Source of the DNA: Kribbella jejuensis
GTDB lineage: Bacteria; Actinomycetota; Actinomycetes; Propionibacteriales; Kribbellaceae
NCBI RefSeq assembly: GCF_006715085.1
Contig: NZ_VFMM01000001.1
Span: 1,302,001-1,366,000 of the forward strand
Length of the DNA: 64,000 nucleotides
Direction: 5' to 3'
A model generated the notes under the pieces. The model searched no databases, was not told the origin of the DNA, and saw only the letters and a list, made by a program, of their open reading frames with translations. Position 1 is the first letter of the stretch. The number at the start of each line of letters is the position of its first letter. The translations under genes were made by a program, and so were the position numbers. Below, in pieces: positions 54,502 through 55,525 of the stretch.

Positions 54502-54687
54502 TCAGACCAGGCGGGCGAGTGCGAGGCGCGCGCGTGCGCTGGCCCTCTCCGCTCGCCGCGAGGCCCGCTCGGCCTGCTTCTGCGCCCGCTCGAGCTGACG
54601 AGCGAAGTGGAAGCGCCGGTTCTGCTCTGCGTCGTTCAATGTGGAACGACAATGAGCACGGGCGAGATCTTCATTGAGTAAATGCAT
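54502..54687 (-). CDS. Small coiled-coil protein downstream of whiB7 (61 aa)
   Basis: A 61-residue, Arg/Ala/Glu-rich helical protein (LNEDLARAHCRSTLNDAEQNRRFHFARQLERAQKQAERASRRAER), probably one long coiled coil. I use the ATG at 54687 because AGGAG (complement of 54695-54699) sits 7 nt upstream; the longer frame to 54720 has no ribosome site. It lies 67 bp after whiB7 on the same strand and may share its transcript. Function unknown; it may be a small stress-induced protein of the WhiB7 response. Confidence 0.75.
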   Translation of the reverse strand: MHLLNEDLARAHCRSTLNDAEQNRRFHFARQLERAQKQAERASRRAERASARARLALARLV

Positions 54688-54754
54688 TTCGGTGCTCCTG
54701 TTGAAAGTCTGGGTAGTCATCGTTCGGACTCGTTTTCGGTAGGGGTTGTCGTCG

Positions 54755-55042
54755 TCAGGCAGCGGTTACGGTGTCGCTCTTGCGGGGACGCCCACGGGGC
54801 CGCTTGCGCGGAACCACCACACCCTGGACGAACAGCTCGCCACCCCACACTCCCCACGGCTCGGAACGCTCGAGCGCTCCGGCCAGGCACTCGGCCTTCA
54901 GCGGGCAGGTCGTGCAGAGCGACTTCGCGTACTCGACGTCCGCCGGCGATTCGGCGAAGAAGAGTTCTGGCGCGTAGGACCGACAGGGCAGGTCCTGCGA
55001 CGTTGCCACCTCGGTGAAGACATCGAGGAAGCTCACGCTCAT
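54755..55042 (-). CDS. whiB7: WhiB7 transcription factor (intrinsic antibiotic resistance)
   Basis: A 95-residue WhiB protein. Four iron-sulfur cysteines are C20, C43, C46 and C52, followed by the GVWGGE turn (64-69) that binds the sigma factor. The C-terminal AT-hook RPRGRPRK (81-88) identifies WhiB7 among WhiB paralogues. WhiB7 joins the housekeeping sigma factor at promoters with an AT-rich patch before the -35 box and activates multidrug-resistance genes. The ATG at 55042 follows a strong GGGAGG ribosome site. It has a long leader with an upstream ORF and an intrinsic terminator. Confidence 0.95.
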   Translation of the reverse strand: MSVSFLDVFTEVATSQDLPCRSYAPELFFAESPADVEYAKSLCTTCPLKAECLAGALERSEPWGVWGGELFVQGVVVPRKRPRGRPRKSDTVTAA

Positions 55043-55123
55043 TCCGGTCACCTCCCAGTGACTGTTGTTGCTGATCTCTTGTCGTCCCTGACGGCTGCCG
55101 GTTGGCAACCGCCAAATCTGTGT

Positions 55124-55201
55124 TGACAAACAAAAGGGCCGCGGGACCCTTGGGTGGGTTCCGCGGCCTGGAGGTGCCGGCTCTGACGCTTGTCAGACCG
55201 G
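55124..55201 (-). terminator. Intrinsic terminator in the whiB7 leader (attenuator) with preceding hairpin
   Basis: On the minus strand GGCCGCGGAACCC (55168-55156) pairs with GGGTCCCGCGGCC (55149-55137), one G-U wobble, loop ACCCAA, followed at once by CTTTTGTTTGTC. This is a canonical rho-independent terminator, ending about 80 nt before the whiB7 start. Just upstream, a second hairpin (55177-55201, CCGG-CTGAC paired with GTCAG-CCGG) straddles the stop codon of the upstream ORF. In addition, CGGGTTC in the last uORF codons can pair with GAACCC of the terminator's 5' arm, a possible antiterminator. Confidence 0.8.
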
Positions 55202-55390
55202 TGGACTCCATGCTCGAGAACCCGAATCGCCGTACTTCACATCGCCGACAGCTCCGCCCTTGAACTGGGCAGCGCCGGAAGCCATGAGCACAACGGTCGC
55301 GACGTGCAGGCGCGGCGAGGCACCCGGGATCTGGGCGCACGGCAGCGCGGCAGCGTCGCTGAACGGCTTCTTGACCGTGTTGGTGATCAT
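55193..55390 (-). CDS. Upstream ORF / leader peptide of whiB7 (65 codons)
   Basis: An open frame of 65 codons starting MITNTVKKPFSDAAALPC, with an ATG preceded by GAGGAGG 10 nt upstream, and ending at TGA 55195-55193, about 24 nt before the terminator hairpin. Its good ribosome site and position inside the whiB7 leader suggest a regulatory leader peptide whose translation state controls the terminator. The sequence has no recognised domain. It could instead be an independent small protein with its own terminator. Confidence 0.65.
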   Translation of the reverse strand: MITNTVKKPFSDAAALPCAQIPGASPRLHVATVVLMASGAAQFKGGAVGDVKYGDSGSRAWSPPV

Positions 55391-55485
55391 TTCCAGGGCA
55401 CCTCCTCTCGTTGTGGCGAAGCGGGCGGTTGGCTCGATCGCTATGGTGGTTTGAAGTTTTCGGCCAGGCTTCGACCGCAGAAAGA

Positions 55486-55525
55486 ACAGTACGCCGTCCG
55501 CGCCGAAGCCCGCAAACTATTTATT
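55486..55525 (-). promoter_or_regulatory. WhiB7-type promoter of whiB7
   Basis: On the minus strand: AATAAATAGT (AT-rich patch, complement of 55516-55525), TTGCGG as -35 (55515-55510), an 18-bp spacer, then TACTGT as -10 (55491-55486). An AT-rich patch touching the -35 is the known recognition pattern of WhiB7's AT-hook, so the gene is probably autoregulated. Transcription would start near 55479, giving a leader of about 435 nt. The rest of the 335-bp stretch 55391-55725, up to the uvrD2 stop, shows nothing else I can name. Confidence 0.65.

Follow-up and report, generated by a model that had tools for sequence, protein, structure and literature searches.

The window analysed here is a stretch of 64,000 nucleotides from the genome of Kribbella jejuensis, and all coordinates below refer to it. 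The whiB7 gene and every element of its upstream region are encoded on the minus strand, where a UvrD/HRDC helicase gene precedes them. The gene (55042-54755) encodes a protein of 95 amino acids, which carries the Pfam WhiB domain and matches solved WhiB7 chains with an E-value of 2e-29, the match extending through the RGRPRK AT-hook; the presence of both the domain and the AT-hook identifies the controlled gene as whiB7. The 95-residue protein had no match in NCBIfam, and the leader region had no relevant match in Rfam. Immediately 3' of whiB7 there is an open reading frame (54502-54720, minus strand) for a basic, coiled-coil-like product of 72 amino acids with neither a Pfam nor an NCBIfam match. 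Wherever a Kribbella locus extends far enough to show it, this frame is in most cases kept beside whiB7, and weak conservation is seen in loci of Streptomyces and Nocardioidaceae; its product is possibly a partner of whiB7. This frame is followed by a strong hairpin, GGGGCGGCACCC-ACCG-GGGGTGCCGCCCC, and then TTCAGCTTT (54468-54438, minus strand), which is likely the end of the whiB7 operon.

We re-examined the minus strand upstream of whiB7 and found the order of elements given in the preliminary description (promoter, leader, 65-codon upstream open reading frame or uORF, stop-codon hairpin, terminator and whiB7) to be correct in both position and character. A WhiB7-type promoter occupies positions 55525-55486. 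It is composed of an AT-rich block, AATAAAT (55525-55519), separated by 3 bp from the -35 element TTGCGG (55515-55510), and, after 18 nt, the -10 element TACTGT (55491-55486). An AT-rich block 3 bp upstream of the -35 element is also what the published WhiB7 motif contains (PMC10727445). The promoter core, ATAAATAGTTTGC, is identical or almost so across the 38 Kribbella genomes of our conservation set, and the pattern is present in 119 of 161 whiB7 leaders. Transcription is expected to start near 55479, for a leader of about 437 nt. The leader segment that precedes the uORF (55391-55479) is strongly conserved in Kribbella (p-distance 0.106) with unremarkable RNA stability (z +0.7). A scan of the genome with strict WhiB7-type promoter patterns produced no match besides whiB7's own; because the patterns are strict, this single match says nothing about the regulon. 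Just 5' of the promoter (about 55555-55534, minus strand) we also observed GGCAACTTCCGGCCAACTTC, found in at least 25 of the 38 Kribbella genomes and in none of the other loci, which may possibly be a site for another regulator.

The uORF extends from an ATG at 55390 to a TGA at 55193 and has its own ribosome site, a Shine-Dalgarno sequence GGAGG at 55405-55401. Its start, frame and stop are intact in all 38 Kribbella genomes, at lengths of 63-70 codons and with the frame preserved through the length changes. Openness as such is weaker evidence, since a neutral copy with 17% substitutions would have a 66% chance of staying open, and all 38 genomes also have one reverse frame open. Two further features were seen within the uORF. 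Isoleucine is very often its second residue (in 63% of cases in Kribbella, 77% in Streptomycetaceae and 88% in Actinopolymorphaceae, but hardly ever in other Propionibacteriales), and a hairpin GCGCCC-N7-GGGTGC at about 55347-55328 (minus strand) has a nearly constant stem and a variable loop across Kribbella.

An intrinsic terminator, GGCCGCGGAACCC...GGGTCCCGCGGCC with the tail CTTTTGTTT, lies between the uORF and whiB7 (55168-55128) and is matched in a terminator scan. Its folding energy is -25.2 kcal/mol (z -4.6, none of 200 shuffles equally stable). It is conserved in 38 of 38 Kribbella genomes, so that both the uORF and the terminator are conserved in related genomes, a point on which the preliminary description had staked its reading. 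A second, larger structure of 68 nt (55223-55156) is built of uORF and terminator sequence. In this antiterminator GGGTTCTCG..GC and TGGAG of the uORF pair with CTCCA..GC..GGAACCC, with an energy of -37.7 kcal/mol (z -5.1, none of 200 shuffles equally stable). When the upstream strand was shuffled in a separate run of 1000, none of the shuffles was as stable as the antiterminator and 89 paired an equal share of the terminator arm. The pairing of GGGTTC (55223-55218) with GAACCC (55161-55156), which had been noticed before, is real and belongs to this full 68-nt structure.

The tip of the antiterminator is the hairpin at the uORF stop codon (55201-55177), CCGGTCTGAC-AAGC-GTCAGAGCCGG, which folds and is conserved in the 38 Kribbella genomes. 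The two large structures contest GGCCGCGGAACCC: the terminator pairs it with GGGTCCCGCGGCC, and the antiterminator pairs it with GGGTTCTCG..GC inside the uORF, an outer helix that is held by the TGGAG:CTCCA helix together with the stop-codon hairpin. Folding indicates that the stop-codon hairpin and the TGGAG:CTCCA helix are compatible with the terminator and that the terminator and the outer helix (GGGTTCTCG..GC with GC..GGAACCC) alone exclude each other. The hairpin that the preliminary description had placed at the stop codon is present, but it is its outer extension, and not the hairpin itself, that excludes the terminator.

In order to compare the antiterminator across families we built a covariance model from eight Kribbella antiterminators. 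The model matches whiB7 leaders of Actinopolymorphaceae and Nocardioidaceae (family names inferred) with a best E-value of about 5e-10 and, more weakly, Streptomyces whiB7/wblC leaders (E-values from about 3e-4 to 5e-3). The matches in other families sit at the expected place, between the uORF and the terminator; the element is nearly palindromic, and some weak matches for this reason lie on the opposite strand at the site. Among 38 aligned members across families, in an alignment that was fitted to the model and so favours the structure, 90% of cells pair and 13 of 26 pairs have changed on both sides. Cells changed on both sides number 74, against 18.7 in shuffles (0 of 500), and pairing falls to about 52% when the partner is slid by one column. 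Of the leader hairpins, whose covariation had been put forward as a check on the original reading, the one at the stop codon has 8 of its 10 pairs changed on both sides across families. The terminator is almost without covariation within Kribbella, where it hardly varies.

We also followed the choice between the two structures as a function of ribosome position, placing a ribosome on each codon in turn, truncating the nascent RNA at its assumed leading edge and computing the partition function, a calculation that takes no account of polymerase speed or coupling. With the A site at codons 1-52 the outer helix has a probability of about 1; this drops to 0.12 at codon 53 and is 0 beyond it, the middle helix is lost at codons 57-58, and in the absence of a ribosome the outer helix has a probability of 0.93. 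In the model, then, a ribosome at the end of the uORF would favour termination, and a stall or failed initiation would favour readthrough, with a stall at any of codons 1-52 predicted to induce. The complete leader at equilibrium prefers the terminator, therefore the switching must be kinetic.

Taken together, these features make it very probable that the Kribbella leader is an actinobacterial whiB7/wblC ribosome-dependent transcription attenuator. RNA polymerase would start at the WhiB7-type promoter and produce the leader RNA. Under healthy translation the leading ribosome would run to the end of the uORF and occupy both the GGGTTC..TGGAG arm and the hairpin at the stop codon; the terminator would fold, and most transcripts would stop short of whiB7. 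If ribosomes were slowed or halted by antibiotics at roughly codons 1-52, or did not load, GGGTTC..TGGAG would pair with CTCCA..GGAACCC, the terminator would be blocked and whiB7 would be transcribed, after which WhiB7 would presumably activate its own promoter. What would count in the uORF is the stretch of codons that the ribosome has to read, whatever peptide they encode. Induction is predicted for a stall at nearly any position within the initial 80% of the uORF, which would explain how chemically unrelated drugs are sensed by one leader. A 2025 paper (PMC12121999) describes one whiB7 leader as responding to many unrelated drugs and to amino-acid starvation; the same paper calls stalling by antibiotics within the whiB7 uORF untested.

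The uORF could instead encode a specific arrest peptide, in the manner of erm leaders, where the drug and the C-terminal residues (here GSRAWSPPV) would act together to stall the ribosome at a single codon. The last residues (AWSPPV) are indeed nearly invariant in Kribbella, and similar endings, W-S-P-P or P-W-S-D-P, recur in other families. However, these conserved codons are the ones that form the antiterminator strand, and the endings in other families encode the same TGGAG pairing strand; their conservation is accounted for by the TGGAG:CTCCA pairing, and we have set WSPP aside as an arrest motif. The peptide otherwise drifts. Between Kribbella species the uORF has a dN of 0.204 and a dS of 0.205 (dN/dS 0.997, or about 0.96 for the uORF body alone), compared with dN/dS values of 0.087 for whiB7 and 0.356 for the C-terminus of uvrD2 in the same strains, although silent sites of the uORF are also constrained (dS 0.205 versus 0.273 for whiB7) and its ratio is therefore inflated. 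The dN of the uORF is eight times that of whiB7, and there is more variation at second than at third codon positions. A late stall, from codon 53 onward, would moreover favour termination and not induction according to the folding model, and the known response of one leader to so many unrelated agents speaks against recognition at one codon. The preserved frame with a drifting peptide, together with the folding for codons 1-52, favours a sensor that is independent of peptide sequence, and we regard an arrest peptide as quite improbable. From these comparisons, it seems that translation of the uORF matters and that its peptide sequence does not.

Control of whiB7 might also be exerted mainly at initiation, via autoactivation by WhiB7, with a terminator that only trims background transcription and does not sense translation. 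No other element is kept as strictly as the promoter, which is of the autoregulated type, as this explanation would have it, but the conserved antiterminator, its covariation and the fixed position of the uORF stop inside it would be left unexplained, which makes the explanation very improbable. We give hardly any credence to a promoter of whiB7's own between the terminator and the gene, with the uORF and terminator forming a separate small transcript: the terminator does separate the uORF from whiB7, but the arrangement accompanies whiB7 in most of the examined leaders from several families, among the segments compared, conservation is lowest from the terminator to whiB7 (p-distance 0.266), a scan detected no sigma-70-type promoter there (nor at 55525-55486), and the antiterminator would serve no purpose.

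Ribosome-dependent attenuation of whiB7 through a uORF, as proposed in the preliminary description, is well supported by comparison of sequences and agrees with published work. According to PMC10727445, a long leader is typical of whiB7 genes in actinobacteria and contains a uORF, an intrinsic terminator and an antiterminator formed from overlapping uORF and terminator sequence; the uORF switch of whiB7/wblC in Streptomyces and Mycobacterium is attributed to Lee, Lee & Roe 2022 (doi 10.1111/mmi.14834) in PMC10727445, PMC11550727, PMC12121999 and PMC13236596. The Kribbella leader resembles these attenuators in promoter type, long leader, uORF, terminator and overlapping-sequence antiterminator, and because the switch has already been published, the Kribbella copy is not a new type. 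The suggestion that a 65-codon uORF and a hairpin at its stop codon make it a distinct version does not hold, as uORFs of about 50-160 codons are usual. Median uORF lengths rise from 65 codons in Kribbella through 74 in other Propionibacteriales, 77 in Pseudonocardiaceae and 89 in Actinopolymorphaceae to 108 in the streptomycete group (the longest about 160), so that other leaders are equally long or longer. Neither is the stop-codon hairpin unique, given that all Kribbella and 97% of streptomycete leaders have the stop codon base-paired in their predicted antiterminator. Our analysis adds Kribbella to the genera with this resistance switch and contributes a covariance model by which the antiterminator can be recognised in several families.

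Several differences of detail from the other whiB7/wblC attenuators can be named. The Kribbella uORF is shorter than that of the Streptomyces wblC attenuator (65 codons versus a median of about 108), the outer clamp GGGTTC:GAACCC has its own letters, and there is an extra covarying hairpin 3' of the terminator. Unlike the uORFs of a mycobacteria-like family, the Kribbella uORFs are not rich in alanine: they contain 15.0% (12.2% in the proteins of the window), compared with 30.6% in three uORFs of that family, which is probably Mycobacteriaceae. A response to alanine starvation is reported for mycobacteria (Poulton 2024, as cited in later papers), and the lower alanine content makes it less expected in Kribbella.

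Comparison can be extended to other attenuators. In the leaders of ABC-F resistance genes (vmlR, vgaL, lmrC and are5sc; PMC12421871) stalling on a uORF likewise blocks an intrinsic terminator and turns a resistance gene on, but those uORFs are very short and the stall is at the start codon, whereas the Kribbella uORF, at 65 codons, serves a gene for a transcription factor. Amino-acid attenuators of the trp or ilvB type share with it the principle that the position of the ribosome in a leader ORF selects between terminator and antiterminator. The signal in those attenuators comes from consecutive control codons for a single amino acid, in contrast to the long run of codons without a conserved peptide in Kribbella; there is no single-amino-acid codon run in the 65-residue peptide, which argues against a trp/ilv-type attenuator. 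An erm-type arrest-peptide leader is disfavoured in the same manner by a uORF body with dN/dS of about 1 and by conserved codons that are the RNA-pairing codons.

A second layer of control was considered as well. The sequence CCGGCACCTCC (55180-55170, minus strand) resembles an anti-Shine-Dalgarno sequence and is invariant in the 38 Kribbella genomes. It is complementary both to the ribosome site of the uORF (GGAGGTGCC, 9 bp) and to that of whiB7 (GGAGGTGACCGG, with one bulge); judged by the length of contiguous pairing, the fit to the whiB7 site does not exceed chance, nor is the complementarity above chance across families, and masking of the Shine-Dalgarno sequence as a conserved second layer is unsupported outside Kribbella. 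It is conceivable, though unlikely, that the Kribbella leader controls whiB7 twice, by attenuation and by masking of the whiB7 (and uORF) ribosome site with CCGGCACCTCC, in which case the antiterminator would hold CCGGCACCTCC away and the hairpin following the terminator would be part of the second step. That hairpin (55113-55090) has 7 of its 10 pairs changed on both sides in Kribbella; we rejected it as a family-wide part of the switch, having found no consistent counterpart in other families. Closer to the gene, a short hairpin (55062-55047, z -1.8) holds the whiB7 Shine-Dalgarno sequence GGGAGG in and beside its loop, and its GTCAC..GTGAC stem is nearly invariant in the 38 Kribbella genomes.
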